From the IMG/VR virus record IMGVR_UViG_3300028840_003635, positions 1 through 58,885 of that record: a stretch of DNA of 58,885 nucleotides. One strand, given 5' to 3'. Below the pieces are notes generated by a model. That model was not told where the DNA came from. It saw nothing but the letters and a program-made list of their open reading frames with translations, and searched no databases. Positions within the stretch are counted from its first letter, which is position 1. Every line of letters begins with the position of its first letter. The DNA comes from a virus. This document shows, one piece after another, positions 30,002 through 58,688 of this stretch. The translations under genes and the position numbers were made by a program.

Positions 30002-32509
30002 ATGAGTAAAAAGAAGAAGAACAGGGAGATGCCGATAATATCGTATGTAATGGTAACCTGTCAGGGTGGTTTGCCTGATACTATCAGGGCGATAAACTCT
30101 TTAAAGAAGAGCAATACGGTTCCCTATGAGCTTATAGTGGTCGATAACGGAACTTCTGATGCTACTACTGCATGGTTGAAGGGTAGCAAAATACAGTATG
30201 TTAAGATAAATAATCTTGTTTCTTACGGAGAGGCTTTAAATAAAGGTTTAAGGCAATGCAGGGGACAATTCATAGGTATATTGAATAATGATATTGTTGT
30301 TACTCCTAATTGGGAGTCTGCAATGCTGTTTGTTTTCAAACAGGCAGAGAAGGGCAGGCTTGTAGGAGTGGATAGGGTCGGAATAGTAGGTCCTATGTCT
30401 AACGCTGTAGGATATGATCAGTGTATTGATCAGAACTTCCTTGCAAAGGTTAATTATCAAAACAATGATGATGCGATCCACGAGTTTGGAGTTCGCTGGT
30501 TTAACCGGATGTGGAGCAGTCAGGAACCGGAGTTAAAGGATAAGTGCAAAAGGACTGGTTTTTTATCGGGCTTTTGTTGGATTATGAGCAGGGATTGTTA
30601 TAAAGGTGTAGGAGATTTTGCAGAGGATTTAACGCCAGGTGGCTTTGAGGATAACGACTATGTTCACAGGGCTGAACTTGCGGGATTTGCTTCTTATATA
30701 AGCCTTCCTTCTTTTGTTCATCACGAAGGTGGGTTGACCTTTAAAGCGTTGAACATGCCTGAAGCAAGACGTGGTATGGCTAACAGGATACCTTTTTATA
30801 ATAAATGGATGGAGAATGATAAATTAGAACAACAGCAAACAGAATGGGAAGATGGTGGCAAATCAGCAACGGTTTGGCAAAAACCTAAAAAACTTGTTGC
30901 AGGTTTAAGGGTAAAAAATGAAGAGAGGTTTTTGTATGAGTGCCTATCTAAGCTATCGGAAGTTGTCGATGAAATTGTTATATTTAACGATAATAGTACG
31001 GATAAAACGGTATCTATCGCAGAGTCCTTCAAGAAGGTTGTCAAGATACATCATTCAAACGAGACGACTTTTAATGAAGCGAGAGACAGAGAAAAGCTCT
31101 GGCAGTTGTGCAGGGAACAAAGTCCAGACTGGATATTGATAATAGACGGCGATGAAGTATTGGAGCCGAGAGTAACAAGAAAAGATTTTGACGAAATGAT
31201 GAACCCTAGAAATCCACAGGTATATTCATGGGTATTCAGGTATATAACTTTATGGGATTTGCCGGACAAGCAGAGAGTGGATGGGACTTTTAGCATGAGG
31301 TTTGGACCTAGACTTGCGAGAAATCTACCTAACTATCACATTACAAGCGATCATCCTATAGGATTGCACTGCGGAAGCGTTCCTGAATACCCTAAATATA
31401 ACGTGTTCTTTTCAAAGTTCAGGATATTACACTACGGCTATATGGACAAAGCTGACAGGGTAAAGAAGTACGAATGGTATGAAGCTAACGACACTGTGAA
31501 AGATCAAAGAGATGTAGGGGACGTTGACTATTCTTACTTGATGGATGATTTTGCTCAGATAATACCTTTCAACCCAGACTTAACTCTTGGTATGGTAACC
31601 TGCGTAAAAGATGAGATGAAGTTGCCTGAGGCTCATTTGGAAAGGTTTTTGAGCTTATATCACTATATTTTTGATGAGATTATCATTGTTGATACCGGAT
31701 CTACGGATAACAGTGTAGAGATAGCGGAGTATTACGGTGCTAAGGTTATTCATCACAAATGGGAAGACGATTTTGCAAAAGCCAGAAATGCAGGTCTGGA
31801 CCATTGCACAACTACTTATGTTATGCACGTAGATCCAGATGAAGGTTTTGGAGGGGACGCTATCAGGTTTCGCAGATGGATAGAGATGCCATGCCTTGCA
31901 TACAGGGTTCCGATAAGGCATCCAAAAGAAGGCTCCGAACCTATGCTAACGTGGAAATGCAGGATATTTAAAAACCTGAAAGAAATAAGATATCAGGATG
32001 CTGTACATGAGCAGATAGAAAGTTGTTTGAAAGATATTAAAGGGCATGGACCCATAATCCCTGTTGTTTATGATGAAAATCAGAGGTTTCAGGGAATCAT
32101 GCATTATGGTTTTCAGAAAGAAGATGGGTTTTTAACCAAAAAGATGGAGCATTACAGGGAAATTAACCAGAAGATGCTGGAGAAAGACCCCGAACATTAT
32201 TATGCTAACTATTCTCTTGCTTTACACTATGCAACGCATGGAGAAGAAGAGAAAGCGATGGAGTATCTTGATGTAGCTATGAAATCGAGACCTGGTTTTG
32301 CGAAAGCAAGGTATCAGGCTTGTTTTTCTCATGTAAGGCGTGGGATAAAAATTTTAGAAGAGGGTTTGCCATTTATGGTAGATAACCCTGAAGAGTATCA
32401 GAGGGCACAGCAGATAATAGCTGAATTAAGACAGTATGGTCCTAAATTGCCAATGATAGGCTATGCAAAAAACGATCCTAGAAGGAAAGAACTTGGATTA
32501 TCAGATTGA
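30002..32509 (+). CDS. Triple-domain glycosyltransferase with TPR end
   Basis: 835 residues. Three GT-A units can be seen: residues about 10-260 (VVDNG..D, GILNNDIVV, GFEDNDYVHRA); about 300-500 (VDEIVIFNDNSTDKT, LIIDGDEV); and about 515-700 (DEIIIVDTGSTDNSVEIA, MHVDPDEGF). TPR-like helices cover about 715-800. The DxD-type acids for nucleotide-sugar and metal are present in each. Placed inside the head-tail module, it probably glycosylates a virion protein. A fusion of this size is uncommon in phages. Confidence 0.85.
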   Translation: MSKKKKNREMPIISYVMVTCQGGLPDTIRAINSLKKSNTVPYELIVVDNGTSDATTAWLKGSKIQYVKINNLVSYGEALNKGLRQCRGQFIGILNNDIVVTPNWESAMLFVFKQAEKGRLVGVDRVGIVGPMSNAVGYDQCIDQNFLAKVNYQNNDDAIHEFGVRWFNRMWSSQEPELKDKCKRTGFLSGFCWIMSRDCYKGVGDFAEDLTPGGFEDNDYVHRAELAGFASYISLPSFVHHEGGLTFKALNMPEARRGMANRIPFYNKWMENDKLEQQQTEWEDGGKSATVWQKPKKLVAGLRVKNEERFLYECLSKLSEVVDEIVIFNDNSTDKTVSIAESFKKVVKIHHSNETTFNEARDREKLWQLCREQSPDWILIIDGDEVLEPRVTRKDFDEMMNPRNPQVYSWVFRYITLWDLPDKQRVDGTFSMRFGPRLARNLPNYHITSDHPIGLHCGSVPEYPKYNVFFSKFRILHYGYMDKADRVKKYEWYEANDTVKDQRDVGDVDYSYLMDDFAQIIPFNPDLTLGMVTCVKDEMKLPEAHLERFLSLYHYIFDEIIIVDTGSTDNSVEIAEYYGAKVIHHKWEDDFAKARNAGLDHCTTTYVMHVDPDEGFGGDAIRFRRWIEMPCLAYRVPIRHPKEGSEPMLTWKCRIFKNLKEIRYQDAVHEQIESCLKDIKGHGPIIPVVYDENQRFQGIMHYGFQKEDGFLTKKMEHYREINQKMLEKDPEHYYANYSLALHYATHGEEEKAMEYLDVAMKSRPGFAKARYQACFSHVRRGIKILEEGLPFMVDNPEEYQRAQQIIAELRQYGPKLPMIGYAKNDPRRKELGLSD

Positions 32510-34149: not shown

Positions 34150-34313
34150 GGATAATGAAAGGAGTTGGAGTATTAAATTCGATAGAAGCGGAGATGATGG
34201 ACAGGGGTGAAAACAAAACTTCGGCTAAAAGACCTCCTCCGGAGTGGAGAAGGAAGTTAAGCAAGGAAGATGATGCTCATATAATGAGAGAAATTCAGGG
34301 ATTGAGAAGATAG
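33577..34313 (+). CDS. Frameshift product of the tail chaperone (gpGT-like)
   Basis: A -1 slip at T TTT TTC (33948-33954) joins the first 126 codons to the overlapping frame that continues from CTT 33954 to 34313, making about 245 residues. The second frame lacks a ribosome site of its own and reads LIEAGVYDKEN... onwards, with an IGYREILAWCVRYGG segment. This is the conserved strategy for tail length control in siphoviruses. Confidence 0.75.
33948..33954 (+). other. Programmed -1 frameshift site TTTTTTC
   Basis: X XXY YYZ heptamer in zero-frame codons CCT TTT TTC. A slip leaves both tRNAs paired with TTT. Confidence 0.7.
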
Positions 34314-34793
34314 ATGCAGGGAGCAATACATTTTAAGATGTGGGTTGATAGGATCGAAAAATCTCTTTTAACTCAAGGGAAGGTAGTTATTTCTAAATAC
34401 ACTAATGAGTTACACAGAGGGGTTGTAAAAAACATTTCTATGAGTCCGCACTCCAAACTTGAGCTTATGCATCTAGATCATCCCTTTGCTAGAAGGCATG
34501 GAACAATACAGCCTCATGGGCACACTCCTTTATGGTCGGTTCATTTAAAAAAAGGCAGGGTTTTAAAAGGGTTGACGAAAAAGGGATATTTAGGGAAGAG
34601 GCATGTTAGGGGAATGGTAGGATGGTTATCTCCTAACAAAATAGTGAGATGGGTTATTAAAAAAGAGGGAACCCAAAAGATGATAGGACGTCCTGTATTG
34701 AGACTAACAGCAGAACAACTAAATATATACGAAAAAATGAGAACAGACTTAGAAAAAATGAAGCCTGTAAAGATGAAAGGAGGTGTAGCGTAA
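34314..34793 (+). CDS. Minor tail protein, 159 aa
   Basis: Starts immediately after the frameshifted frame. Basic, with HLDHPFARRHGTIQPHGHTPLW, several His and Arg, and a helical C-terminus. Position suggests a tail assembly role; no family recognised. Confidence 0.5.
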   Translation: MQGAIHFKMWVDRIEKSLLTQGKVVISKYTNELHRGVVKNISMSPHSKLELMHLDHPFARRHGTIQPHGHTPLWSVHLKKGRVLKGLTKKGYLGKRHVRGMVGWLSPNKIVRWVIKKEGTQKMIGRPVLRLTAEQLNIYEKMRTDLEKMKPVKMKGGVA

Positions 34794-37193
34794 ATGGCGG
34801 AAGGTGTACATTTTAGTGAATCGGGAGTTACTTATGACATAGGTCTAAGGTTTGTTAAAGCAGCAAATCTTGACAAGGGAATGAAGTGGGTTAAGGCTTT
34901 TGAGAGAGAAATTGAAAAACTTGGGAAAAAGGCTTCTTATGCTAAAGAAGAAATCGAAAAGTTGGACTACTATGCTTCTAATGAATACAAAAAGCTAAAA
35001 GACAAGGTTATAAAAATCGAAAAGGCAAAACACGCAGCTCTTTTAGCCGAAGTAAGAAAGTTTAATGCCGAGAACGATGCACTCCTTAGTGCTGCAAATG
35101 CAAAAATAGAATCAAGAATGGTAAAAAACGCAATAATTAGGAAAGCAAGGTATAAAAAACAAATTGCAGATACTATAGATCTTAGATCTAAAGAAGATGC
35201 GGAAATATTAAAATCCGAAGAGAAAAAGAAAAAAGCTGAAGAAAAATATCACGAGAATATAAATAGAATACGGGACGCAAACAGGATAAGGGAGTGGAGA
35301 AAAAAGAAAGCAGACTGGGCAAGGACGGAGGGTGGAACCAAAAAACATATATCAGCTAGGAAAAGGGAGTTACAGAATTTTGGGAGGTATGTACAACACT
35401 GGGCAGCAAGGGTGGCTCTTTTTGTAGGTGTTGGATTTGTAGCAAGGGGAATAAAGAATTTTACTTTCGGAATTATAGAACAGGCAAGGGAGATGGATCG
35501 GCTTGCCAAAATAACAGGTATAAATATAGAGGCTTTATCTGGGTTTAAGTATGCTGCGGAGGTAAACCTTATTACAGTGGATCAGTTTAAGGTAGCGGTT
35601 GACTTTTTAAATAAAGCGATGTATGAAGCAACAACACGTGGAGGGGATGCAAAGGAAGCATTTGAAAACTTAGGAATATCCGTAAAGGAGGTTAAAAACC
35701 TAAATACCGAACAAGCGTTCTATAGGGTTGCTGATGGAATGAAACAAACAACAAACGCAACCATAAAAGCTAATGCAGCACTTGCAATATTTGGACGTGG
35801 CGGTAGAAATATGCTTGCTATCACAGACAAGGGTTCTGAAGGGCTAAGAGAGTACCTTGCTGTTGCAGGCGAAATGGGAAATATCTTTACTCAAGAATTG
35901 GCTGACAACGCAAGAGAGCTAGGCAAGTCCATGAAGGCTGTAAGTGCTGGAGTAACTGGACTCGGAATGTCTTTTATGAAGGATTTTGCTCCGGCAATGA
36001 AAGACTATATAGATTTTTTGAGATATGACGTGATACCTATTCTAAAAACAGCAATGGAGTATCATATAAAAACTCAAAACGAACAAGTTTTGGACAACAT
36101 ATTAAAGAAAAGGAAAGAGCTTGAAAAGTTTGGAGCAAAAGCTGGAAGTACATTCCAAAATTTTTTAGGACTTGGTGAAATATGGGGGATGGCTGAAAAA
36201 CAGGCATACGAAGAACTGTTATTGCTGCTTGAGCAAGAGGGAATAATAACTAAAGAAAACTCAAAGTGGTATAAGGATAGAATGAAGGCGGCACAAGAAG
36301 CCAAAGAAAAAGAGAAAAAGAGGCTCGAAGAAAAGTTACGAAAAGAAAAAGAGTTTGCGAAATGGAAAGAAGAAACAGATGCAAAAATAGATAGCCAAGC
36401 AAAGTCTTTTTCAGACAAAGCTGTTGAAAGATATAGGATGCAAAAGGAGAGTTTGGATGGTTTAAACGAATCTCTAGAAAAAAATCTTGATCTAGAGCTA
36501 GAAAAAGATCCTGACAAGTTGCCTAGCTGGACTCCTCCAACGCCTGACCCTTCTACAATGGAAACGAGTAGAGAATACAGAGAAACAACGAACAACTACA
36601 AAGACCTAGCAAGCATGCTAGTAAGCATAGTAAGAGATGCTTTAAGCGATATGGAGGCTGCTTTCTCAGAATTTTTCTATGTTCAGATGGAGGCAGGGGT
36701 AAACTTTAAAGATGCATGGAAAGAACTCTGGGAGGATATGAAAAGGGCTGCATTAAAAGCTCTATCAGATATTATGGCAAAAGCAATTACTGTATCTCTT
36801 GTTTTACAAGCTTCTGGAGGAATGGCATCGTTCGATAAAGGAGGGTTTGTTCCTAAAGGACCAGGGTCTCTACCTAAAATACCCAAAGCTGAGAAGGGAA
36901 TGATAACAAGAGGAACGGGTCCTATTCCTGCAATATTGCATCCAAACGAAGTTGTGTTGCCTGCAAACTGGATAGGAGATTTTTTCAAGACAACGGCAGA
37001 GAGGATGTTTAAGGGAGTTCCTATGCCTAGTGGTGGTGGAGGAACCTCTATAAGTAATAGTAGCAGGTCTTATTCTCCGGTTATAAATGTTACGGTAAAT
37101 TCACCGGACTTGAATGATGATATACAGTTATTAAATATTGCCAGAAAGATAGGGGATAAATTAGAACAGGATCAAAGAAGGCGAGTGAATTAG
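34794..37193 (+). CDS. Tape-measure protein
   Basis: 799 residues. Long Lys/Glu-rich helical N-terminal region, a hydrophobic patch (WAARVALFVGVGFVARGI) near residue 210, repeated helices, a Lys/Glu coiled coil around 495-560, and a Gly-rich GGFVPKGPGSLPKIPKAEKG end of the kind found in lambda-type tape measures. Sets tail length: roughly 1.5 A per residue predicts a tail of about 120 nm. Confidence 0.85.
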   Translation: MAEGVHFSESGVTYDIGLRFVKAANLDKGMKWVKAFEREIEKLGKKASYAKEEIEKLDYYASNEYKKLKDKVIKIEKAKHAALLAEVRKFNAENDALLSAANAKIESRMVKNAIIRKARYKKQIADTIDLRSKEDAEILKSEEKKKKAEEKYHENINRIRDANRIREWRKKKADWARTEGGTKKHISARKRELQNFGRYVQHWAARVALFVGVGFVARGIKNFTFGIIEQAREMDRLAKITGINIEALSGFKYAAEVNLITVDQFKVAVDFLNKAMYEATTRGGDAKEAFENLGISVKEVKNLNTEQAFYRVADGMKQTTNATIKANAALAIFGRGGRNMLAITDKGSEGLREYLAVAGEMGNIFTQELADNARELGKSMKAVSAGVTGLGMSFMKDFAPAMKDYIDFLRYDVIPILKTAMEYHIKTQNEQVLDNILKKRKELEKFGAKAGSTFQNFLGLGEIWGMAEKQAYEELLLLLEQEGIITKENSKWYKDRMKAAQEAKEKEKKRLEEKLRKEKEFAKWKEETDAKIDSQAKSFSDKAVERYRMQKESLDGLNESLEKNLDLELEKDPDKLPSWTPPTPDPSTMETSREYRETTNNYKDLASMLVSIVRDALSDMEAAFSEFFYVQMEAGVNFKDAWKELWEDMKRAALKALSDIMAKAITVSLVLQASGGMASFDKGGFVPKGPGSLPKIPKAEKGMITRGTGPIPAILHPNEVVLPANWIGDFFKTTAERMFKGVPMPSGGGGTSISNSSRSYSPVINVTVNSPDLNDDIQLLNIARKIGDKLEQDQRRRVN

Positions 37194-43359: not shown

Positions 43360-45348
43360 ATGAAGCAACGCAAGCAGGAAAACGATGTATTTTGGTATGT
43401 AGTGATGATTTTATTGATTATTGCTATATTCTTGATGCTTTTGACTGCATGTAGTGCTGATGATTATTGGGTTTATATTGCTACCGAGACTAAACTTTCG
43501 GGTGCGGAAGGAACGCAGGCAATGGAGGGGGATATTGTTACCATCCTTCCTGCGAACAAGCAGTATAATCCAACAGAAGGCAGTGAGCAGACAAAACATT
43601 TTGCGATTGTCAAGATGTCGGGATTGACTAAAGAAGATGTTAAAAAGTATAAAGAAGCATGGAAAGACGATAAAGATAAAGTTATTCTCTACCGTAAATA
43701 TAAACTTACCGGATTAAAAACCATTGGACTTGACAAGAATGGGTTAAAAGAATCTATTATCAATTATTCATCTCCTTTGATTAAATCAAAATTCAAACAG
43801 AAAACCGATCTTGATAGAATGGCATGGCAAGTTCAAAAAGATAATTATGATAACAAAATGAAAGAGCATAGAGATTTTTTTCGTATGCTTGATTGTGTAA
43901 AACCTGCTTACGCACTTACTATAAACATTTCAGTTATTAACTCTGAAGTTGTAGGTGATGATTATGAAGATTTAAGTTCATGGGAATCGGCTACAGATAA
44001 TAACTTAGTGGGAACAACTACCATAGAACAAGCAGATTGCTATGATGATGATGGTGCGTTAGAGGACACTTGCTATATTGCAGGTGCAACGGTAAACAGT
44101 TCATACTATAGAATTATAACTGTACCTTCTGGCGACAGACACGATGGAACAGATCAGGGAGGTGGAGCTGCAGGAACGGGTTTTGAGTTTAATCTTGGAG
44201 GGCATTTCAGCTATTGCATCAGGACGTCAGAGGATTATGTAAAAATCGAGTGGGTAAAGTTTGACCTTGAGGCTTTTTGTACAAGTAATGCTATCTTAAA
44301 TTATAACGACCATGTTCATATTAAAAACTGTATCTTCTTCTCCGGAACCTGCGGATCTAATGCTGGAGTAAAACACAATGCTTATTATCAAGAATTAACA
44401 GTTGAAAACTGTCTCTTTCAGGACATAAACGGGACGGGTATTTCTGATGTTGATTCCCAGGCAAGCACCAGAACTTACACAAACAATACAGCCGTTGATT
44501 GTGCTACTGGATATGGAATAACTACAGGAGGGGCTTCTGTTACCCTGACAAATTGCTTAGGCTATGGGAATACTACAGCAGACTTTACCTGCGGAGCTAA
44601 TACCGTTTTAAATTACTGTGCATCTGATGACAGCACTGCTGACAATTATGGTGGCGGCGATAACAAGGTTGATATTAGCGATCCTTTTGAAAATTATGCA
44701 GGCAACGATTTCCATCTTGCATCCGATGACACTGAATGTAAGGATGCAGGGACAAGCATGAGCGGTGATTTCGTAGACGATTATGAAGGTGATACCCGAT
44801 CCGGTTCGTGGGATATAGGTTGTGATGAAGTCGTGGGAGTTGTGCCAACACCAACAATGACCATAACGGCAACCAATACTGAAACTCCGACAGAAACTGT
44901 AACAGCGACACCGACTAATACTCAAACTCCAACACTTACAACGACTAATACCGAAACTCCGACCGTAACGGCAACCAATACCGAGACACCAACTGAGACT
45001 CCGACACAGACACCGACCGCAACGGCAACAGCAACTGCAACACCAACATTTACTGTTACGGCAACTCCGACTAAAACAACTACTGCTACGCCAACTCAAA
45101 CTCAGACAGTAACAAGCACTGCGACAGTAACAAGCACGGCAACAGTAACAAGCACGGCAACACAGACTGCTACTTCAACGGTAACAGCAACCCCAAATAT
45201 ACCTGCAATATTTGAAGAAATAAATGTATACAGGTTTTACCCTTATGAAGAAAACGAATCTTTCAGGTTTTATCCTTACGAGGAGAAAGATCTGGATAGA
45301 GATTATCCTTATGAAGAAATAAATGTTTATAGTAACCACAGGAGGTAG
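43360..45348 (+). CDS. Lipoprotein with beta-helix and mucin-like Thr/Pro-rich tail
   Basis: 662 residues from ATG 43360 after AAAGGAG. The helix [15 protein letters not shown] ends in LTAC, a lipobox. Residues about 200-495 are a right-handed beta-helix ending in [18 protein letters not shown], a signature of secreted bacterial pectate-lyase-like proteins. About 497-612 are Thr/Pro/Ala repeats, followed by three (F/D)YPYEE motifs. A lipoprotein signal is odd for a virion gene. The protein may be host-derived and exposed on the cell, or a heavily glycosylated virion fibre. Confidence 0.7.
44857..45195 (+). repeat. Low-complexity Thr/Pro-coding repeats
   Basis: ACN/CCN-rich runs such as ACAACACCG and a triplicated ACAGTAACAAGCAC-type unit near 45106-45160. 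Prone to length variation. Confidence 0.75.
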
Positions 45349-45350
45349 CA

Positions 45351-45989
45351 ATGAATTTTGTAAGAAAGTATAAGTATCAGATAATGATTGGTGTAGTAAC
45401 TTTTATAGTAGCACACTTCTTAGCCTTGCTGGTGATAAGTAGTTTTGGATCAGGGTCTCAGGAGAGAGATGAATATGAATCTGTTTACAAACAAAAAACA
45501 AAATCTTATGGATTTCCTTTATTAAACAAGGACACTCACAGAGCATTAACCATAGACACCTCTAATGATGTTGTTAAGTTCAGGGTAAAGAAGAATGTAG
45601 AAGATGGATCTTACCAGATAGACAAGACCTGCACCTATGTAAAGAAGTTCACTTATTATGGTTTGAACGGGACTTTTAGTTCTTCCGCATCTGTAACAGG
45701 GGCAACATCCTCAGCGACAGGAACGCTAGAATATATTGACACTAAGGGCAATACCATGTATCTGTCAGGCATAACTGGAACCTTTCAGGACGGCGAAACT
45801 GTTTATGAGACTGCGAACACGATCTATGTAACACTGTCAGATGACGGGGTATGGATGGGAGTAACAACACTGTCCGCTACGGATACAAATTTAGATGCAG
45901 GAGATTATTTTGCTTACGTAGAATTAAGCAACGCATCTCTCAGCTATGATGAAGTTCTTTTAAAAAGCAAATGGAAGGTCGTTCAGTAA
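45351..45989 (+). CDS. Membrane-anchored beta-rich protein, 212 aa
   Basis: ATG after CAGGAGGTAGC. N-terminal anchor (IMIGVVTFIVAHFLALLVI), then a beta-rich domain with Gly/Thr repeats (SSSASVTGATSSATG, GNTMYLSGITG). Like the preceding lipoprotein it carries its own export signal. Last gene of the late operon before the glycan cassette. Confidence 0.6.
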   Translation: MNFVRKYKYQIMIGVVTFIVAHFLALLVISSFGSGSQERDEYESVYKQKTKSYGFPLLNKDTHRALTIDTSNDVVKFRVKKNVEDGSYQIDKTCTYVKKFTYYGLNGTFSSSASVTGATSSATGTLEYIDTKGNTMYLSGITGTFQDGETVYETANTIYVTLSDDGVWMGVTTLSATDTNLDAGDYFAYVELSNASLSYDEVLLKSKWKVVQ

Positions 45990-46008: not shown

Positions 46009-46025
46009 TGGCACAATATTTGCAT
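46009..46025 (+). promoter_or_regulatory. Sigma-54 promoter of the glycan cassette
   Basis: TGGCACAATATTTGCAT: GG 46010-46011, GC 46022-46023, 10 bp between. 53 bp before the first cassette gene. Confidence 0.85.
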
Positions 46026-46075: not shown

Positions 46076-47008
46076 ATGTTCTGGTTGAAAAGGGTAGGCG
46101 GAGAGAGCAAGTCAAACAAGGTAAGAATCACTGATGTCGGAACATTTGAGCTAGAAAACAACTATATTTGCGTTGAGCATGTTCAGGATGCTGATTTTTT
46201 AATATCTGAACATGGACGTAATTTAACAGGGATGGTATTTGAAAAAGTCGAAGATCCCAAACTTCCCGAAAAGCCAATTAAGAAAGAACAAATATTTGTA
46301 AATACTTATAAAAAGGAGAAAATGATTGTGAACCCAAATAGGAACGTATTGATTGTTACCGCCTTTACAAAAGGGTATGATCTTGTTTCTGAATATTTGC
46401 ATCCTGTTTCTAATTATCACTATTTATGCTATACAAATGATTATAAATTTACTTCTGATTTTTTTGTAGTTTCACGATTGCCGGAAGGGAAAACACCAGA
46501 AGAAAATGTTAGGCTCGCAAGGGGGATAAAGTTAAACCTTTCCGACCATTTAACTGTATCTGATTATGATTATATCATCTGGCTAGATGCTAATTGTTCT
46601 TTTATAAGAGAAGTGGATTCTTTAATTGATGACTTAGGAGATGATGATGTTGCAATATTTGGACACAGAGAAAGAAATTGCCTTTATTCAGAGGCAAAAG
46701 CGTGTATTAGGTATAAGAAGGATTCTCAGAGCGTTATAAACAAGCAGGTAAAAAAATACAAGAAAGAGGGGTTTCCTAGCAATTATGGTATGTGGGCAAC
46801 CCATTGCATTGTATATAGACCTACTAGGGAAGCTCTAAGTTTTTTTAAGATTTGGTATGCGGAAGTTACAAACCACTCATATAGAGATCAAATAAGCCTG
46901 CCGTATGCTTTAAAAAAAAGCAAAGTAAAATTTCATACACTGTTAAATGCAGAAATTTTTAGTGTAGAATGGTTTAAGTATGTATCTATAAGAGGGCATT
47001 GTGTTTAA
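46076..47008 (+). CDS. DUF616/TOD1-like glycosyltransferase
   Basis: 310 residues after AAAAGGAG. Residues about 90-300: YDYIIWLDANCSF supplies the DxD-like metal site, then FGHRERNCLYSEAKAC, the HRxRxCxYxEA signature of the TOD1/DUF616 family. The first 80 residues are an extra N-terminal part. First gene of the cassette. Confidence 0.75.
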   Translation: MFWLKRVGGESKSNKVRITDVGTFELENNYICVEHVQDADFLISEHGRNLTGMVFEKVEDPKLPEKPIKKEQIFVNTYKKEKMIVNPNRNVLIVTAFTKGYDLVSEYLHPVSNYHYLCYTNDYKFTSDFFVVSRLPEGKTPEENVRLARGIKLNLSDHLTVSDYDYIIWLDANCSFIREVDSLIDDLGDDDVAIFGHRERNCLYSEAKACIRYKKDSQSVINKQVKKYKKEGFPSNYGMWATHCIVYRPTREALSFFKIWYAEVTNHSYRDQISLPYALKKSKVKFHTLLNAEIFSVEWFKYVSIRGHCV

Positions 47009-47525
47009 GATAAAAAAGAGCGTGGAAATAAAAAAGAACGGACACCTGTGCTTCGACTTTGGGTGTGGAAAGAGTAAAAAGAAGGGGTATGTGGGAGTAG
47101 ACTGTCAAGATTTTGAATGTGTTGATATCGTGTCTGATGTAAATGGATTTAAAAATATACCAGGGAGTTCAGCTTGCAGAATTCATTCGTGCCATTTTAT
47201 AGAGCACCTAGGGCACGATGATGTATTTTTTGTTTTAAAGCAATGGATGAGAATACTTGAGAGTAGGGGGATTTTAACAATTTATTTCCCAGACATTAGC
47301 TTGGTTATACCAGAAACAAACATAAAAATTGCCATAAATCATGTGTGGGGTTCCAGAAAGGATCAATATGATTACCACAAGACATTCTGGACTGCCAGAT
47401 CGATGATGTTTATGTTGCAATATGTCGGGTATGCTAACGTAAGAACAATACCTTACTTTGGGAAGCTACATCCATACAAAGGAGACATGGCTTGGACTTC
47501 AGGAGTGGAAGGAATTAAAAAATGA
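47001..47525 (+). CDS. SAM-dependent methyltransferase (class I)
   Basis: 174 residues, GTG start, 8-bp overlap with the previous gene. FDFGCGKSKKKGYVGVD is motif I with its acidic partner; HSCHFIEHL is the motif typical of sugar/lipid methyltransferases (SxxxxEH). Likely O-methylates a glycan. Confidence 0.75.
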   Translation: MFKIKKSVEIKKNGHLCFDFGCGKSKKKGYVGVDCQDFECVDIVSDVNGFKNIPGSSACRIHSCHFIEHLGHDDVFFVLKQWMRILESRGILTIYFPDISLVIPETNIKIAINHVWGSRKDQYDYHKTFWTARSMMFMLQYVGYANVRTIPYFGKLHPYKGDMAWTSGVEGIKK

Positions 47526-48202
47526 TAAATAAACGACCTTTAAAATTTTACGTTGATAAAATAAAAAATAATGAAGTCTTTAGCTTTTCGAGATATGGAG
47601 ACGGTGAATGGATATATATGACCTGCCCTTCTGGCAGAACCAGAATAAATAAAGAAATGGACTACTTCCCAGAAGCAGCCGAATCTTTAAGAAAAACAAT
47701 TTTGTTTCCGAAAGCAAGTTCTTCTTATTTTTATGGGCTTCAAAGATTAGCTCTAAAGATGTTTGCTGACAAAATACCATCCACTATTGACTGGCATGGA
47801 AGTGATTTATTTCATCATGCTTCGATAAGTGGAGCATTGTCGCCCTTAATAGCTTCTATTGTTGAGAAAGATGTTGTTTTTGTTGGACCTAGGTATTTAA
47901 AAAATATAAATAGCATCATTCCTTACGTGGATTTTATAGAGATAGACGGTAAAAATTGTTATACGCAAATACATGATATATTAAAAAGAATAAAAGATAC
48001 AAAGAGAGAATCTGGCAATATGATATATAGTTTTTCTGCCGGTGCATTTACAAACATTATGATTTATAAGCTGTATGATGAGATGAAAAATAACTGGCTT
48101 ATAGATTTTGGATCGGTATGGGACCCTTATGTTAATCAAAACACAAGGGGTTATCATAAAAAAATGACCAGGGACTTAATAAGTATAAATACAGGAGGCT
48201 AG
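47522..48202 (+). CDS. GT-D fold glycosyltransferase
   Basis: 226 residues, 4-bp overlap. FSFSRYGDGEW near residue 20 is the RxGDGE signature of GT-D (GT-101-like) enzymes of streptococcal SRR-adhesin glycosylation. A Ser/Thr-glycan extending role fits the mucin-like protein upstream. Confidence 0.75.
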   Translation: MINKRPLKFYVDKIKNNEVFSFSRYGDGEWIYMTCPSGRTRINKEMDYFPEAAESLRKTILFPKASSSYFYGLQRLALKMFADKIPSTIDWHGSDLFHHASISGALSPLIASIVEKDVVFVGPRYLKNINSIIPYVDFIEIDGKNCYTQIHDILKRIKDTKRESGNMIYSFSAGAFTNIMIYKLYDEMKNNWLIDFGSVWDPYVNQNTRGYHKKMTRDLISINTGG

Positions 48203-48205
48203 TTT

Positions 48206-48898
48206 GTGGTAATATCTATAATTATTGCTCACTATGGAAACAGCAAATACCTAGAAGATTGTTTACTTTCGATAGAGCAAAACACATATATACCTCATGA
48301 GGTTATAACGGTCAACACCGAAAAACCCAGAATATCTGTGGCTGAGGCGTGGAACGAAGGGATAGAGTCGGCTACAGGGGAAATTGTTGTTATTTTAAAT
48401 GACGATACCCTAGTATCAGAATTTTGGTTGTCTAGGTTGTATTGGTATTTGCAGGCAATAGATAATGCTATGGTTTCGACCCCGTCTACATCTAAATGTG
48501 CAAGCATTATATATACGGAACTCTATGACAAAATGAAACCTGATGTAAAATCAACAGCAGATGTAAATAGATTTAACAAAATAGTGTCTAAATATTACGG
48601 TCTCTCATACAAAAAACTAGCAAGCCATGAAGTTACAGGGTTTTGTGCAATGTTTAGAAAGAAGGATTGGGAGTTAGCTGGTAAGTTTTACAAGGGGTTC
48701 AAATATGCTTATGGAGAAGAAAACGATTTTTTTGACAAGTTATCAAAAAAAAAGAAAGGTGTGTTTGTTTTAGCGAGCGGGGTGTATGTTCATCACTTCA
48801 AAGGGAAAACTACAGAGAGGGTAAAGGATTTAGACCTTATTGCATGTAAGGCATTATATGAAAGGAGAAGGCATGAGCGAAGAAAAAAAACAACATAA
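48206..48898 (+). CDS. Family 2 glycosyltransferase
   Basis: 230 residues, GTG start. GT-A fold: IIAHYGNSKYLEDCLLSI start, ATGEIVVILNDDTLVSEFW with the DDT metal site, GFCAMFRKKDWE and a C-terminal FDKL region. Overlaps the next gene by 26 bp. Confidence 0.8.
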   Translation: MVISIIIAHYGNSKYLEDCLLSIEQNTYIPHEVITVNTEKPRISVAEAWNEGIESATGEIVVILNDDTLVSEFWLSRLYWYLQAIDNAMVSTPSTSKCASIIYTELYDKMKPDVKSTADVNRFNKIVSKYYGLSYKKLASHEVTGFCAMFRKKDWELAGKFYKGFKYAYGEENDFFDKLSKKKKGVFVLASGVYVHHFKGKTTERVKDLDLIACKALYERRRHERRKKTT

Positions 48899-49442
48899 AA
48901 TAATAGTAGGTGGTATAGGAAGAACGGGTTCAACTGCTTTAATGTGTATTCTTTCTTATCTAGAGTTAGGGACTGGATTTGGGAAATATTCTTATCGAAA
49001 CGAATATATTAACAAACTATTTTTTCTTGAGGGCAGAGAAGAAGCCTATATATATAAAGAGAACGAAAACGCTGGACTTATTCCTGAAAGGTTTGATAAA
49101 TATATTGTAGATTATTTTATATTTTTACAGAGAGATATAAACAAGGCAGCAGCCAGCAGGGTTAGGAAACATCAAGAGGGTTACTGGATGGGGGGATTAA
49201 CAGCCGATACTGAATGGAAGCCTGAAAGACAAAATGCTATTTTATTAGGGAAATATAAATCTCTCAAGAGGTATTTAGAGAAGAGAGACGTCCCTGTGGT
49301 TGAAATAATTTACCCAGACTTTATAAAGGATGTTGATTATTTATATGAAAAATTGCTTTTGCCGTTTCCTTGCCTTGAAAAAGACAGGTTAAAAAAGGCT
49401 TTTGATTTAATAATCTATAAAGATACGGAGGGATATAAATGA
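48873..49442 (+). CDS. Sulfotransferase-like protein
   Basis: 189 residues; ATG 48873 follows AAAGGAGAAG. GGIGRTGSTAL at residues 12-22 is the PAPS-binding loop of sulfotransferases; later R and S residues would contact the 3'-phosphate. Could sulfate a glycan of the cassette. Confidence 0.65.
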   Translation: MSEEKKQHKIIVGGIGRTGSTALMCILSYLELGTGFGKYSYRNEYINKLFFLEGREEAYIYKENENAGLIPERFDKYIVDYFIFLQRDINKAAASRVRKHQEGYWMGGLTADTEWKPERQNAILLGKYKSLKRYLEKRDVPVVEIIYPDFIKDVDYLYEKLLLPFPCLEKDRLKKAFDLIIYKDTEGYK

Positions 49443-50062
49443 GAATAGCGGTATTAACTTGCGATAAGTATAATTTTTTGATTCCCTATTTCTGGCATTT
49501 TTTTAAAAAGAATTTTCCAGACAATCCGTATCCTGTAGACTTTGTAACTGAGACAGAGAGAATATATTTTGGGGACAATGTTTTCTATGGCGGGAAAAAT
49601 CTATGGTCAACTCTTTTGCAAAATTATCTAAAAACAGTAACAGATGACAAGATACTGATTTTATTTGATGATTACATGATTTATGGTGTAGATCTCAAAA
49701 AAACAAAGGAAGCGGAAAGTCTGTGCTGTGGGGAGGTAGGCTGTATAAATTTAATCAAAATGAATTGTGAAAAGGCTCTCGTTTATCCTGACGGGATGGA
49801 TGGATATCTTACCAAAGATTTTAACTCAGAGATAACTACCGGATGTCAGGCTACAATTTGGCAAAAAGATTATCTCAAGGAAGTTTATCCTGAAGGTAGA
49901 GATAGTTGGAAAGCAGAGACATACGGATACAGAAAAATGAAAACTCTGAACAAAAAGGTTTTATATTCAACCACTCCCATATTTTCTTATGTGCATGGTG
50001 GTTGCATGATAAAAGGCAATAAGGTCGATGCAGTATTTAAACAAATGGCGGAGAAATGGTAA
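49439..50062 (+). CDS. Glycosyltransferase-like protein, 207 aa
   Basis: 4-bp overlap with the previous gene. MRIAVLTCDKYNFL start and LILFDDYMIYG (DD metal site) resemble GT-A enzymes; ends with an EVYPEGRDSW..ET segment. Family not certain. Confidence 0.6.
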   Translation: MRIAVLTCDKYNFLIPYFWHFFKKNFPDNPYPVDFVTETERIYFGDNVFYGGKNLWSTLLQNYLKTVTDDKILILFDDYMIYGVDLKKTKEAESLCCGEVGCINLIKMNCEKALVYPDGMDGYLTKDFNSEITTGCQATIWQKDYLKEVYPEGRDSWKAETYGYRKMKTLNKKVLYSTTPIFSYVHGGCMIKGNKVDAVFKQMAEKW

Positions 50063-51147
50063 TGGAATGGACAGATGCATATAATCCTTTTAATAGTTTT
50101 AAAGTTTTAGTATGGTCTAAGCAGTTACAGAACCTTGCAAATGGGAAGATTCCTTTGCCCGTAACTGTAGATACAGATCCAACAACAAGATGCAATTATA
50201 ACTGCATATGGTGTAATGCTCAGAAATATAGAGCAAAAGGACAACATACCCTGTCCGAAGAGCAGTTAGATAACCTAGTAAATATATACTCTAAGATGGG
50301 AGTTAAATCTACTTGTATTGCAGGAGGTGGCGAACCCACTTTAAACCCGCACCTTGCAAACTTTATAACAAGTCTACATGTGAACAACATAGAGACAGGG
50401 ATAATAACAAACGGATCTTCGATGACGAAAGAACAATTAGTGTCTATTGCAGAAGGGTCAAGGTGGTGCGGATTCTCTGTAGACGCTGGTAATGCGGGGA
50501 CTTATGTTAAGGTTAAGGGAATAAAAGACAGAAAATATTTCAGGATAGTCATTAAAAACATAGAATCTCTGTGTAATTTGATTCAAAAGTTTAACCTGAA
50601 ACCTAAGTGTGAAGTTGCTTTTAAGTTTTTAGTATCCCCTGACAACATCAACAGCATATACGAAGCAACGAGAGTTGCCAGGGAATGTGGAGTAGACCAT
50701 TTCCATTTAAGACCTGCCTGTGTTGATAACTTAGAGTCTTTTATTGCTCACAAGAGGTATATGTTTCATAGCTATTTAGAGACGTTTTCTGTAGAGACTG
50801 AAAAGGCAAGGAGGCTGGAAACTAAGGACTTTAAAGTGTATGTTGTAAAGCATAAGTTTAACAATTTTTTAGGCAGAAAGGTGGGTTTTAAAAAATGCAG
50901 GGCAACTCCCCTGCTTGCAACATTCGGAGCTGATGGGTATTGCCATCTATGTTTTGACCTTCGGGGTAAAGAAGATTTTATTATGTGTAAACATGAAGAT
51001 ATCATGGATTTTTGGGGGAGTGATAGGCATATCGAGATGATTGACTCAATAGATCCTGAAAAGTGTCCGAGGTGCACCTTTGGAGCTTATAACGAAATTA
51101 TAGAGAAGGTTTTTATTGAGGACAAGATGTGCAAGAATTTTCCATAA
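50062..51147 (+). CDS. Radical SAM enzyme with SPASM-like end
   Basis: 361 residues from ATG 50062, 8 bp after GGAG, overlapping the previous stop. TRCNYNCIWCNAQ is the CxxxCxxC cluster site; GGGEPTLNP binds SAM. The C-terminal half has CRATPLL..., CHLC, C and CPRC cysteines for an auxiliary cluster. Typical substrates are peptides or sugars; in this setting it may modify a sugar or a virion protein. Confidence 0.8.
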   Translation: MEWTDAYNPFNSFKVLVWSKQLQNLANGKIPLPVTVDTDPTTRCNYNCIWCNAQKYRAKGQHTLSEEQLDNLVNIYSKMGVKSTCIAGGGEPTLNPHLANFITSLHVNNIETGIITNGSSMTKEQLVSIAEGSRWCGFSVDAGNAGTYVKVKGIKDRKYFRIVIKNIESLCNLIQKFNLKPKCEVAFKFLVSPDNINSIYEATRVARECGVDHFHLRPACVDNLESFIAHKRYMFHSYLETFSVETEKARRLETKDFKVYVVKHKFNNFLGRKVGFKKCRATPLLATFGADGYCHLCFDLRGKEDFIMCKHEDIMDFWGSDRHIEMIDSIDPEKCPRCTFGAYNEIIEKVFIEDKMCKNFP

Positions 51148-51159
51148 GGAGAACAAATA

Positions 51160-51909
51160 ATGAATAAAGTAGCAATAATGCTTCCTGTTTATAATGCAGA
51201 AAATACATTGCAAAGATGCATAGATAGCTTAAAAAATCAAACATATCAAGATTATGTTGTGATGGCACGAGATGATGGGTCTACAGATAGCAGCCTTAAG
51301 ATATTAAAGTCTAATGAGTCTGATAAGATAAAAGTGTTTAGCAATATCAAAAATTTAGGATGTGTCCTCAATAGAAACAAGATCTTAGAGGATTCTCTTG
51401 CAATAAAAGATGTAGCATATATAGCCATACAGGATGCTGATGATTGGAGTGAACCAAACAGAATAGAAAAACAGGTCGAGTTCTTAGAAAAAAACAAAGA
51501 ATATGGAGTTTGCGGGACATGGTATTACTGGCATGATGTTAAAGATAGAGGGCAGTCTATAAAAGCAATAAAGACATTAACAGAGGACGTTGAGATAAGG
51601 AGAATGCAGTATTTTGGTAGCCAGGCATGTCATGGAAGTTATGTTATCAGGAGAGAAGTATATAATGACGTTGGATTTTATGACCCCTATTTTGTTTGGA
51701 GCCATGACAACGACTGGCTAACCAGGTTGCTTTACGGAAAAAAATGGAAGGTATGTACAATCCCGGAGAACCTATATCATGTGTGGGTAACTGAATATAC
51801 TCACTCTAAAACAAACGAAAGAAATATTTATAAACAGAAGCAAAGGTATAAAAGGTATTGTGAATCTGTCGGAGTAAAATATGAAGAAAAATATTGGAGA
51901 AGGATATGA
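51160..51909 (+). CDS. Family 2 glycosyltransferase
   Basis: 249 residues after AAGGAGAACAAAT. MLPVYNAENTLQRCIDSLKNQ start, ARDDGSTDSSL and IQDADDWSEPNR (DAD metal site), then a late HDNDWLTRL: a complete GT2 enzyme. Confidence 0.85.
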   Translation: MNKVAIMLPVYNAENTLQRCIDSLKNQTYQDYVVMARDDGSTDSSLKILKSNESDKIKVFSNIKNLGCVLNRNKILEDSLAIKDVAYIAIQDADDWSEPNRIEKQVEFLEKNKEYGVCGTWYYWHDVKDRGQSIKAIKTLTEDVEIRRMQYFGSQACHGSYVIRREVYNDVGFYDPYFVWSHDNDWLTRLLYGKKWKVCTIPENLYHVWVTEYTHSKTNERNIYKQKQRYKRYCESVGVKYEEKYWRRI

Positions 51910-52442
51910 TGGATACTTATGAAAATAAAATAAAGGGAATGATGGGAGCAAAGGATTTGATGTGGCTTTACAATATTGCTCAAAAAATGAACAGCATAGT
52001 GGAGATTGGCTGTTGGTCTGGCAAAAGTACTCATGCCTTATTGTCTGGGTGCAAGGGAACTGTATACGCTGTTGATCACTGGATTGGTAGTAGTTACAGC
52101 AACCTTACAAAAGGAGAAAAAGAAATTCACGATCTTGCTATAAGCGGAAAGGTGTTTGACAAGTTTAAGAGGAATGTTGGTCATTTTAAAAACTTAAAAA
52201 TTCATAAAATGGAAAGCATGAAGGCTGTAAAAAAATTCAAAAACAAGTCAGTTGATATGGTTTTTATAGATGGGTGTCATAGGTACAAAGATGTTTGCGA
52301 CGACATTAAAGGATGGTTACCTAAAACGAGAAAACTAATTTGCGGGCATGATATTGCTCATGGACCGGTAAAAAAAGCTGTTGATGAACTAATAGGAGAA
52401 CACGAACTAACAGAGCAAAATATATGGTTTAAGTGGTTGTGA
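51909..52442 (+). CDS. SAM-dependent methyltransferase (family 24 type)
   Basis: 177 residues; ATG 51909 (51906 also possible) after GGAGAAGG. IVEIGCWSGKSTHALL is motif I, VYAVDHW the acidic strand, VDMVFIDGCHRY the characteristic DGxH motif. Probably methylates a sugar hydroxyl. Confidence 0.75.
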   Translation: MDTYENKIKGMMGAKDLMWLYNIAQKMNSIVEIGCWSGKSTHALLSGCKGTVYAVDHWIGSSYSNLTKGEKEIHDLAISGKVFDKFKRNVGHFKNLKIHKMESMKAVKKFKNKSVDMVFIDGCHRYKDVCDDIKGWLPKTRKLICGHDIAHGPVKKAVDELIGEHELTEQNIWFKWL

Positions 52443-53182
52443 TGATGAAGCATTATTTATTAACAAGATATAATTGCGGATTATATTCTGGAGTGGGATT
52501 TGTTGATAAGAATGGGAATAGTATAAATTGCTATGCAGACAAATGGATGGAGCATAGGTTTAATTTATTCTCAAAAGTGTGTTTACCTTCTATAAAAAAT
52601 CAAACCAATCAGTCGTTCGACTGGATTGTTGTTTTGGACAAAAAAACTCCCAAGCATTTCAAGGAACAGCTTGAGGCTTGCAAAACAATACGAAAGTTTA
52701 AGATATTATACGACAAAGAGGAGGCAAGAACAGTCCCATTATCTTATATAAAAAACGATATTAAAGATGAGAATTGTATAACATCGAGAGTCGATAATGA
52801 TGATGCTCTTCACAAAAGGTTTATGGAGATTGTTGCTCAAGAAGCAGAAGATAATATGGGCAACGCCATTCTTTTTGCAAATGGGTGTTATTATGATGTA
52901 TCACAAAAAACCATGAGCCTTCACAGCTACCCGTTAAACCCTTTTATGTCTTTACCTAACAATCCAAGCAGAGACAAGTCTATTGTTTGGAGTGTAGATC
53001 ATGGTAGCATAGGAGACATATCTAAGGGTGTATTTACAATACACTGTCAACCTATGTGGCTATCTACTGTTCATTTATATAACAGGAAAAATACTTTAAG
53101 AGGTAAGATGGTGGAGATGCAATCTGAAATAGAAAACTACTTAAAAAACTTTTCTATAAACATGGAGCTTGAAATAATATGA
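52442..53182 (+). CDS. Putative rhamnosyltransferase-like glycosyltransferase
   Basis: 246 residues. HYLLTRYNCGLYSG start, LFSKVCLPSIKNQTNQSFDWIVVLD and SRVDNDDALH (DND metal site) match the family of putative rhamnosyltransferases. Start overlaps the previous stop, with only a weak ribosome site. Last gene of the cassette. Confidence 0.7.
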   Translation: MMKHYLLTRYNCGLYSGVGFVDKNGNSINCYADKWMEHRFNLFSKVCLPSIKNQTNQSFDWIVVLDKKTPKHFKEQLEACKTIRKFKILYDKEEARTVPLSYIKNDIKDENCITSRVDNDDALHKRFMEIVAQEAEDNMGNAILFANGCYYDVSQKTMSLHSYPLNPFMSLPNNPSRDKSIVWSVDHGSIGDISKGVFTIHCQPMWLSTVHLYNRKNTLRGKMVEMQSEIENYLKNFSINMELEII

Positions 53183-53664
53183 AAAAAAGAAAAAAGAATC
53201 CAACAGGGATAATGATTCATTGTTCTGATTCTTCTCATGGAGACAAAGACCTTATAAAGAAATGGCATACATCAGGGAATGGATGGGAAGATATTGGCTA
53301 CAACTGGATAATTACTAACGGATGTCGGTTAGCTCACAAGTATAAGAAGGAGAACGATGGAATAATAGAAAAGGGAAGGGACGTTAAATATGCAGGAGCA
53401 CATGCACGAGGGTATAATGAAAGCCATCTCGGTATATGCTTAGTTGGATCTCATCATTTTACACCAAAGCAGTTTGAATCCCTGTTTGAATTGTTAAGAA
53501 AATTGCAAACTTCTAATCTTGTAGATTATTTTATACCTGGATGTAAAATAAGGAATAAGAATATTTTAGGGCATTATGAAGTAAATAAAAACAAGACCTG
53601 TCCTAATATAGATATGGAATGGTTAAGACAACAAATAGATTTAAACCTGAACGAAAGGAAGTGA
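53179..53664 (+). CDS. N-acetylmuramoyl-L-alanine amidase (endolysin)
   Basis: 161 residues. IMIHCSDSSHG supplies the first zinc ligand, GAHARGYNESHLGICLVG the middle motif, and GHYEVNKNKTCPN the last His and Cys: the amidase_2/PGRP fold of T7 lysozyme. No separate wall-binding domain and no signal peptide, so a holin is needed. 4-bp overlap with the glycan cassette. Confidence 0.9.
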   Translation: MKKRKKNPTGIMIHCSDSSHGDKDLIKKWHTSGNGWEDIGYNWIITNGCRLAHKYKKENDGIIEKGRDVKYAGAHARGYNESHLGICLVGSHHFTPKQFESLFELLRKLQTSNLVDYFIPGCKIRNKNILGHYEVNKNKTCPNIDMEWLRQQIDLNLNERK

Positions 53665-56296: not shown

Positions 56297-57952
56297 ATGG
56301 GAGAAATATACAACAGATGTAAGTGCGCAGGACTGATAAAACAACGATACCCAAATCCTGATGAACTTAAACAGTTTGAAGAATGGTTGTTAGATGCAAA
56401 CGAAAAAGACAAAGAACTTATTCCTACCTGTGAAAACACTCTGAAGCAATTCAACTCTTTAGGATTAAGGTTATCATCAGATAAAGACCCCTGCGAGTCC
56501 TGTCCTATTGTAGAAGTAAAGCCAAAGGATTTCAGACCTTTAGAACTGAATGGAAAATTTGCAGAGAAATTGCCTTCTGTTCCAAAATTTCCTATCGAGA
56601 TCATACCGGAACCTTTTAAGTCTTATATACAAGATGTTGCGAACAGTGTTGACTGTATGATTGAATATGTTGCAATGGCAATGCTTGTATATTGGAGTGC
56701 AGTAGTAGGATTAAAACAGGAAATTGTTATAAAGGATGACTGGATAGAACCCTGTATGATTTGGGGAGCAATAATTGGACTTCCATCTTCAGGAAAAACG
56801 CCTGGCATAGATAAATGCAGGACTTTTATCAGGGAACTGGAGTATAAGTCAAGGAAAAATTATGAGAATAAGATGGAAGAGTATGAAAGACAAATGGCAG
56901 AGTTTGAGCTGGAAAGCAAGGGTAATATAAAAATAGATAAGCCTGAGCTTCCTGAACTGCATCGCTATGAAATACAGGATGCAACAAGAGAGGCTTCCAG
57001 TAAGATGATGTATAAAAACCCTAACGGAATTATAATGTCTCAGGATGAACTCTCTGCTTTTTTTACAGGATTGGATCAATACAAAAAAGGCAACGCAGGG
57101 GCAGACAGGCAATTCTGGCTAACAGCGTGGAGTTCAAAACAAATAACAGTTGATAGGGTATCATCAGAGGATTATTTCATAGAAAAACCTTTTTGTTCTA
57201 TTATAGGGGCTTTGCTACCGGACTACTTAAAGATGTTTAGAGATCCAAAAGCAGGGTATGTTGAGGACGGCATGACTGCAAGATTTTTGTTTTTATATCC
57301 CAAAGAACATATACCTTTTTTTAAAAGAGAATCCAGGATAAAACAAGAAAACCATGACGCTGTTCAGGAGTGCTTTAAATGGATGGATGAAACTGTGTTT
57401 ATAAAGGACAGATATAATATAAATACAGATGGCTATGTTAAATTATCTACTCAAAACAATACAGCAAAACTCTATACTGAATGGGTGAACGGTGTTCACA
57501 GGAGACAGATGGAAAAGGAGATACCAGAGGACCTAAAAATTCACTGGGGTAAGTTGGGAGCCTATGTTCCAAGATTGGCTCTGTTGTTTCATACAATGCG
57601 AGAAGCAAGGGCAAAAAAGATTATACCCTATATGATGGATGAAAGCATGGAGAGAGCGATCAACATTATCGAGAAGTGCTTTAAGCCTCATATTAAAAAA
57701 GTCTATTATGTCAAGAGTTTAACAAGGGACGAAAAAATAGCGTATAAGTTATACGATTGGATGGTTAGCAAAGGAGAGTCCTTATATTATCTAACAGATT
57801 TAAACCAGAGATTTAAGCCTAATGGCAAGGGTTTGGGTATAGGGACCATAACAATTATGTGTGAGATTCTTGACGTTCATGGCAGGGGTAAGATTTTCAC
57901 AAAGAAGAAGATGAAGTATATTTATGTGTTCAAGGAGAATCGTAATGCTTGA
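56297..57952 (+). CDS. DUF3987-family protein (helicase/primase-associated)
   Basis: 551 residues after GGAGGAG. Residues 1-85 carry scattered cysteines (CKCAG, C, CESC), possibly a zinc site. From about 145: MIWGAIIGLPSSGKTP (Walker A), IIMSQDELSAFF, FCSIIGALLPDYL and GMTARFLFLYP, the signature series of DUF3987, often fused to phage/plasmid primases. Probable replication ATPase. Confidence 0.75.
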   Translation: MGEIYNRCKCAGLIKQRYPNPDELKQFEEWLLDANEKDKELIPTCENTLKQFNSLGLRLSSDKDPCESCPIVEVKPKDFRPLELNGKFAEKLPSVPKFPIEIIPEPFKSYIQDVANSVDCMIEYVAMAMLVYWSAVVGLKQEIVIKDDWIEPCMIWGAIIGLPSSGKTPGIDKCRTFIRELEYKSRKNYENKMEEYERQMAEFELESKGNIKIDKPELPELHRYEIQDATREASSKMMYKNPNGIIMSQDELSAFFTGLDQYKKGNAGADRQFWLTAWSSKQITVDRVSSEDYFIEKPFCSIIGALLPDYLKMFRDPKAGYVEDGMTARFLFLYPKEHIPFFKRESRIKQENHDAVQECFKWMDETVFIKDRYNINTDGYVKLSTQNNTAKLYTEWVNGVHRRQMEKEIPEDLKIHWGKLGAYVPRLALLFHTMREARAKKIIPYMMDESMERAINIIEKCFKPHIKKVYYVKSLTRDEKIAYKLYDWMVSKGESLYYLTDLNQRFKPNGKGLGIGTITIMCEILDVHGRGKIFTKKKMKYIYVFKENRNA

Positions 57953-58688
57953 AATAAACAAAGTCTATCATGGTGATTGTTTGAAGGTAATGCAGGGCAT
58001 ACCGGATAAGTCGATTGACATGATCAACTGCGACCTTCCTTACGGAACAACCGCTTGCAAGTGGGATACGATAATACCTTTTGAGCCTTTATGGGAACAA
58101 TACAAAAGGATTATTAAGGATAACGGAGCGATTGTATTATCAGCTTCACAGCCTTTTACCAGTAAACTTGTTATGAGCAATTTAAAGATGTTTAAGTATG
58201 AGTGGATATGGGCTAAATCCAAAGCGACTGGACATCTTGACTCTAATCGAAAGCCATTGAGATCACACGAAAACATTTTAGTGTTTTATAAAAACCTTCC
58301 CACTTACAATCCTCAAATGACAAAAGGGGAAAAACATCACAGGAGTCAAAAAAAACAGTCAAAACAAACAGAAGTTTATGGGAGATTCAAATTTGATCTT
58401 TATTATAGTGATGAATATTATCCTAAAACGATTCAATTTAAGAATGTCCAAGAAAATGCGATTCACCCAACCCAAAAACCAGTAGCTTTATACGAGTACC
58501 TAATCAGGACTTATACTAATGAAGGCGATACGGTATTAGATAATTGCGCTGGTTCAGGCACTACTGCCATTGCCTGTATCAACCTTAACCGCAATTATAT
58601 TCTAATCGAAAAAGAGAAGAAATACGTTGACATTTGTAACCAGAGGATTAGGGAAGCACAGCAACAAACAAGGATTGATTTTAAATGA
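57945..58688 (+). CDS. DNA adenine methyltransferase (beta class)
   Basis: 247 residues; ATG 57945 follows AAGGAGAATCGTA. INCDLPYG near residue 34 is motif IV with Leu in place of the first Pro, HPTQKPVALYEYL and DNCAGSGTT (motif I) follow. Such orphan enzymes with DLPYG protect phage DNA. Overlaps the DUF3987 gene by 8 bp. Confidence 0.85.
   Translation: MLEINKVYHGDCLKVMQGIPDKSIDMINCDLPYGTTACKWDTIIPFEPLWEQYKRIIKDNGAIVLSASQPFTSKLVMSNLKMFKYEWIWAKSKATGHLDSNRKPLRSHENILVFYKNLPTYNPQMTKGEKHHRSQKKQSKQTEVYGRFKFDLYYSDEYYPKTIQFKNVQENAIHPTQKPVALYEYLIRTYTNEGDTVLDNCAGSGTTAIACINLNRNYILIEKEKKYVDICNQRIREAQQQTRIDFK

Follow-up and report, generated by a model that had tools for sequence, protein, structure and literature searches.

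A predicted sugar-modification gene cassette of variable content between the tail and endolysin genes of an uncultured tailed phage

Analysis of an IMG/VR virus record of 58,885 bases (the whole stretch analysed, called here the window), in which terminase, portal, major head, tape measure and endolysin genes are present, revealed a ten-gene cassette for glycan modification at positions 46076-53182, placed after tail genes and before an amidase gene. Comparison with a related phage record, IMGVR_UViG_3300017971_000343 (G001), indicates that the cassette site is kept and its content turns over, the radical SAM and sulfotransferase-like genes being retained and the rest reshuffled; judged from its genes, the cassette is a real and variable phage trait. 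The gene calls are mechanical, and both phage records may be fragments. The cassette genes (c1 to c10) and their surroundings are as follows.

30002..32509, plus strand: 835-aa multidomain GT2 glycosyltransferase in the head-tail block, outside the cassette (PF00535 in three stretches, 3.3e-45)
43360..45348, plus strand: exported-type protein with a hydrophobic, lipobox-like N-terminus and a mucin-like Thr/Pro-rich stretch, candidate glycan acceptor
45351..45989, plus strand: small protein with an N-terminal membrane segment (KD 2.79), between the mucin-like gene and the cassette
46009..46024, plus strand: sigma-54-type promoter TGGCACAATATTTGCA, 51 nt upstream of the c1 start
46076..47008, plus strand: c1, TOD1/MUCI70-like glycosyltransferase (PF04765, 2.6e-13; PHROG 26101 glycosyltransferase, 1.5e-19)
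47001..47525, plus strand: c2, SAM methyltransferase-like, weak (PHROG 6636, 0.0022; PHROG 5399, 0.0036)
47522..48202, plus strand: c3, GT-D-like glycosyltransferase by RYGDGE motif only (TIGR03728, 0.047, sub-threshold)
48206..48898, plus strand: c4, GT2 glycosyltransferase (PF00535, 1.1e-12)
48873..49442, plus strand: c5, sulfotransferase-like P-loop protein (motifs GGxGRTGST and R86-x7-S94; PF13469 sub-threshold)
49439..50062, plus strand: c6, glycosyltransferase-like acidic motif (FDDY) only, no family match
50056..51147, plus strand: c7, radical SAM enzyme with C-terminal auxiliary-cluster cysteines (PF04055, Radical_SAM, 3.2e-16)
51160..51909, plus strand: c8, GT2 glycosyltransferase (PF00535, 2.9e-29; 33% relative in the G001 cassette)
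51894..52442, plus strand: c9, Methyltransf_24 methyltransferase (PF13578, 1.6e-17)
52433..53182, plus strand: c10, rhamnosyltransferase-like glycosyltransferase (PF11316, Rhamno_transf, 4.3e-27)
53179..53664, plus strand: amidase endolysin (PHROG 822, 1.5e-27; 4-nt overlap with c10; 49% in G001)

The tight overlap described in an earlier note on this DNA is borne out, as the ten co-directional reading frames are joined by junctions of -26 to +12 nt (from c1 to the amidase: -8, -4, +3, -26, -4, -7, +12, -16, -10 and -4 nt), and ribosome-binding sites are present at most cassette starts. Family support is firm for c1, c4, c7, c8, c9 and c10, weak for c2, and at the level of motifs for c3, c5 and c6. 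Four glycosyltransferases are recognized by family match and a further two by their motifs; the others are two methyltransferases (c2 weakly), one radical SAM enzyme and one probable sulfotransferase. The five or six glycosyltransferases that the note had counted are accordingly secure for four; c3 joins its motif to a sub-threshold match, a PDB sialyltransferase hit at 0.028 being non-significant, and family database searches gave no support for c6 as a glycosyltransferase. The claim of two methyltransferases stands for c9 and is tentative for c2 (PHROG match of about 2e-3), whose blastp relatives lie near radical SAM genes in loci L004 and L013. For c3 and c6, no relatives were found in phages, plasmids or viral contigs. 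A family scan detected no NAD-epimerase or nucleotidyltransferase genes for sugar synthesis among c1 to c10, and a DNA-level search of the cassette against GenBank phages returned no match.

c5 is probably a sulfotransferase. In PAPS-dependent sulfotransferases the 5'-PSB motif follows [KR]xG[ST][ST] and the 3'-PSB motif R-x7-S, and both are present in c5. A relative 48% identical to c5 is encoded in G001 and in G002, a non-independent record with almost the gene content of G001. Aligning c5 with this relative shows GGxGRTGST to be invariant, and likewise R86 and S94, which stand eight residues apart, as the two residues of the 3' PAPS-binding motif do in sulfotransferases. The sulfotransferase-like protein of the earlier note is made probable by conserved motifs, while the family scores stay below threshold (PF13469, Sulfotransfer_3: 0.37 for c5 and 0.027 for the relative). 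No match was obtained against PDB chains, and a viral scan with the c5 alignment found no relatives beyond the two already known.

The radical SAM enzyme was correctly recognized in c7. Alignment of ten c7 relatives revealed that C46, C50 and C53 (CxxxCxxC) and C281, C299, C337 and C340 are invariant, the C-terminal pattern being C281-x12-G-x4-C299 and C337-x2-C340. Enzymes with auxiliary clusters combine CxxxCxxC with Cx9-15Gx4C and further C-terminal cysteines, and by its aligned residues the C-terminal part of c7 has this arrangement. A small NAD-epimerase gene adjoins or stands close to the radical SAM gene in loci L003, L012 and L007, and the relative in L014 follows the major head gene in the company of GHMP kinase, TPP-enzyme, cupin and B12 radical SAM genes, a gene context that favours sugar chemistry for c7. 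The relative in G001 is 60% identical, and the window copy pairs with it in the tree (99/96). Other relatives of c7 are located in head or tail gene blocks of phages. Phage and cellular copies interleave in this tree, so the c7 gene appears to move between phages and cells. Among cellular copies, one in Lokiarchaeota sits among EPS-type genes with an ABC-2 exporter, and relatives occur in 11 of 149 genomes of the phylum of an Eremiobacterota MAG, apparently with no sugar genes nearby within the short stretches read.

The synteny in related phages that the note had proposed to look for was found. Portal, head, tape measure and tail genes are common to G001 and the window at about 32-40% (amidase 49%), and the interval from tail to amidase in G001 holds a different, 12-gene cassette, which comprises GT2 proteins, a 1276-aa protein, the c5 relative (48%), three methyltransferases, the c7 relative (60%), a second radical SAM protein and two Glyco_trans_1_2 proteins. 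The 1276-aa protein joins GT2 domains to a B12-binding radical SAM domain (locus L010, 1829-5659). The 835-aa GT2 protein of the head-tail block has a full-length relative (39.5%) at the same place in G001. These close relatives were reached only via the radical SAM profile, terminase and major capsid scans of viral contigs having returned none. Homologues of the cassette genes are not confined to host exopolysaccharide operons, the outcome that would have spoken against a phage trait: phage-linked copies occur in L003/L004, L005, L010/L011, L012, L013 and L014. Cassettes stand between the portal gene and a head decoration-like gene in L004, between major capsid and tail-side genes in L014, between the major capsid and stabilization protein genes in MW202801 (L005), and next to a terminase-like gene in L002. 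The last includes a relative of c1, which is also found in Cellulophaga phages; in phi18:1 the c1 relative and a PF13578 methyltransferase are flanked by genes for head morphogenesis and for a protease. Epimerases are present in the relatives L003 and L012, unlike in c1 to c10.

A sigma-54-type promoter had also been noticed before the cassette. The site is real and above chance; the description as the cassette's own promoter is only partly apt, because the site is one of a genome-wide set (1506+, 18176-, 19549+, 46009+, 53991+ and 56234+). These six window sites have at most one mismatch to TGGCACGNNNNTTGCW, against 0.12 expected, and none of 100 shuffles reached as many. The window has five perfect TGGCAY-N5-TTGCW sites, where about 0.1 would be expected, and G001 has six; among the records of six other relatives, five have no perfect site and one has a single site, and the reversed pattern gave no sites in any record. 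By eye, all six window sites precede a start codon with a plausible ribosome-binding site. In a stricter automatic test, which about 10% of positions pass by chance, 4 of the 5 perfect window sites and 3 of the 6 in G001 lie 15-110 nt from a start with a ribosome-binding site. We infer that several operons of the two related phages are preceded by sigma-54-type promoters. No such site stands before the G001 cassette, which therefore probably reads on from the tail operon. Neither sigma-54 nor its activator is encoded in the two, possibly fragmentary, records. In the open-access literature searched, no phage gene sets under sigma-54 were found, which does not prove that there are none.

Large sugar clusters are already known from phages; what is new is that these genes occur together, are coupled to the endolysin gene, turn over at a fixed site and come with a set of sigma-54-type promoters. 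The earlier suggestion that few phages carry this many such genes may hold for mid-sized phages, as the cyanophage P-SSM2 has a sugar/LPS cluster of 15 genes and S-SSM6a one of 10, within a survey range of 8-15 genes (PMC7824862). Those clusters, likewise from tailed phages, are large polymorphic sets of genes for glycosyltransferases, methyltransferases and sugar enzymes, but they belong to jumbo phages with sugar-nucleotide synthesis genes, whereas the present record is of about 59 kb, with no NDP-sugar synthesis in the cassette and with endolysin coupling and radical SAM and sulfotransferase-like genes. Mycobacteriophages encode glycosyltransferases that attach sugars to their capsid and tail tube (Che8 gp110 and Corndog gp38; PMC12363180); far fewer enzymes are named there, and the acceptor, only a candidate here, is shown in that system. 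The chlorovirus PBCV-1, which glycosylates its capsid autonomously, also has glycosyltransferases without an ER signal peptide, a multidomain glycosyltransferase and a methylated terminal sugar, the capsid glycan of chloroviruses, with its methylated end sugar, being made by a three-domain GT/GT/methyltransferase protein (PMC7019647); PBCV-1 infects eukaryotic algae and is likened by description, not by homology. The podovirus ctQWt234 (MW202801) carries radical SAM, two glycosyltransferase, methyltransferase and NodB-like genes between capsid and tail-side genes, but its radical SAM protein is only about 25% identical, PhyH and NodB genes are present, and no sulfotransferase-like gene is annotated.

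No membrane segment was detected in c1 to c10 (best 19-mer KD 1.42) or in the twelve G001 cassette proteins, and no flippase, polymerase, polyprenyl transferase or membrane-bound glycosyltransferase was seen in the cassette. This argues for direct modification in the cytoplasm rather than O-antigen conversion. The parts of a gtrABC-type conversion system (GtrA flippase, membrane-bound GtrB/GtrC) are missing from the cassette, a weak GtrB PHROG similarity of c8 being its sole gtr-like signal; gtr-type conversion was ranked lower, there being no transmembrane segment in the ten proteins and no flippase.

Our preferred reading, to which we give an even chance, is that soluble cassette enzymes glycosylate a virion protein at a late stage of infection. 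At that stage c1 to c10 would be transcribed together with the endolysin gene by the host's RNA polymerase, with sigma-54 and an activator that also come from the host. Drawing on host NDP-sugars in the cytoplasm, the glycosyltransferases would assemble an oligosaccharide straight onto a protein of the phage. Its sugars may be methylated or capped by the two methyltransferases, c7 may remodel one through radical chemistry, and c5 may sulfate one using PAPS. The acceptor would most likely be a tail, fibre or head protein of the virion, the decoration would alter how progeny particles are seen or bound, and gene turnover between relatives would diversify it. This reading is favoured because the cassette lies between tail and endolysin genes in the window and in G001 alike, c10 running into the endolysin gene, because the 835-aa glycosyltransferase is conserved in the structural block of both, because cassettes of this sort also lie within the head or tail gene blocks of other phages, and because mycobacteriophage capsid and tail glycosylation and the chlorovirus capsid glycan provide precedents. 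Soluble glycosyltransferases are encoded here with late or structural genes, as expected of virus-encoded virion glycosylation. Against it, lipid-linked precursors of the host can also be substrates of soluble glycosyltransferases, the export-type N-termini of the Thr/Pro-rich neighbours mean that surface proteins, not those of the virion, may be what the cassette modifies, and c3, c5 and c6 are assigned by motif. The phage glycan-modification cassette of the earlier note is supported by the phage-linked copies, and methylation and sulfation of the glycan are predictions from gene content. If true, a mid-sized phage decorates its own proteins through a multi-enzyme pathway that is varied quickly between relatives, giving a diversifying surface. 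Independently of this, the sigma-54 set would make expression of phage genes depend on a regulatory state of the host for which a dedicated ATP-driven activator is required.

The cassette could instead remodel host LPS, capsule or EPS, in seroconversion or superinfection exclusion, as proposed for the cyanophage sugar clusters, whose polymorphic sets of 8-15 genes are read as modifying outer polysaccharide (PMC7824862). The Lokiarchaeota c7 copy among EPS-type genes with an exporter and the export-type N-termini of the two proteins adjoining the cassette agree with this, but the missing flippase, polymerase, polyprenyl transferase and membrane-bound glycosyltransferase do not, and endolysin coupling suggests late expression, with little time for a new surface to act; we regard it as rather unlikely. 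In another alternative, the glycosyltransferases would modify exported proteins of the phage, the Thr/Pro-rich one and the one encoded next to it, which would coat the infected cell or its debris and not the virion. Each phage has only one mucin-like ORF, which flanks the cassette (in G001 at 34084-35973, reverse-complement orientation), has a signal- or lipobox-like N-terminus and is a candidate glycan acceptor. A Thr-rich linker can however be no more than a stalk, no homology is detectable between the folded parts of the two mucin-like proteins, and no mucin-like ORF occurs in the stretches examined of L004, L012, L013 and L005, so that this explanation seems to us unlikely. Both mucin-like proteins have hydrophobic N-termini and aromatic/acidic repeats at the end, in a similar architecture. 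The fullest version of the proposal, in which a tailed-phage lineage sets several operons, including a rapidly reshuffling glycan cassette, under host sigma-54 and, through a cytoplasmic pathway with radical SAM and sulfotransferase steps, covers a mucin-like protein of its own with a glycan that is methylated and sulfated, is unlikely as a whole.

Hypermodification of phage DNA with sugars is very improbable. Glycosylation of phage DNA is known (cited in PMC12619734), and three N6/N4 DNA methylase-like genes are present in the window, but no base hydroxymethylase or thymidylate-synthase-like gene was seen among the ORFs scanned, the cassette lies in the late structural and lysis region, and its glycosyltransferases resemble polysaccharide enzymes. 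The methylase-like ORFs are located at 10270-11496, 57924-58688 and 809-1339 (the last sub-threshold), and a DNA polymerase III beta-clamp C-terminal domain is encoded at 14164-15342 on the minus strand, in a leftward operon.
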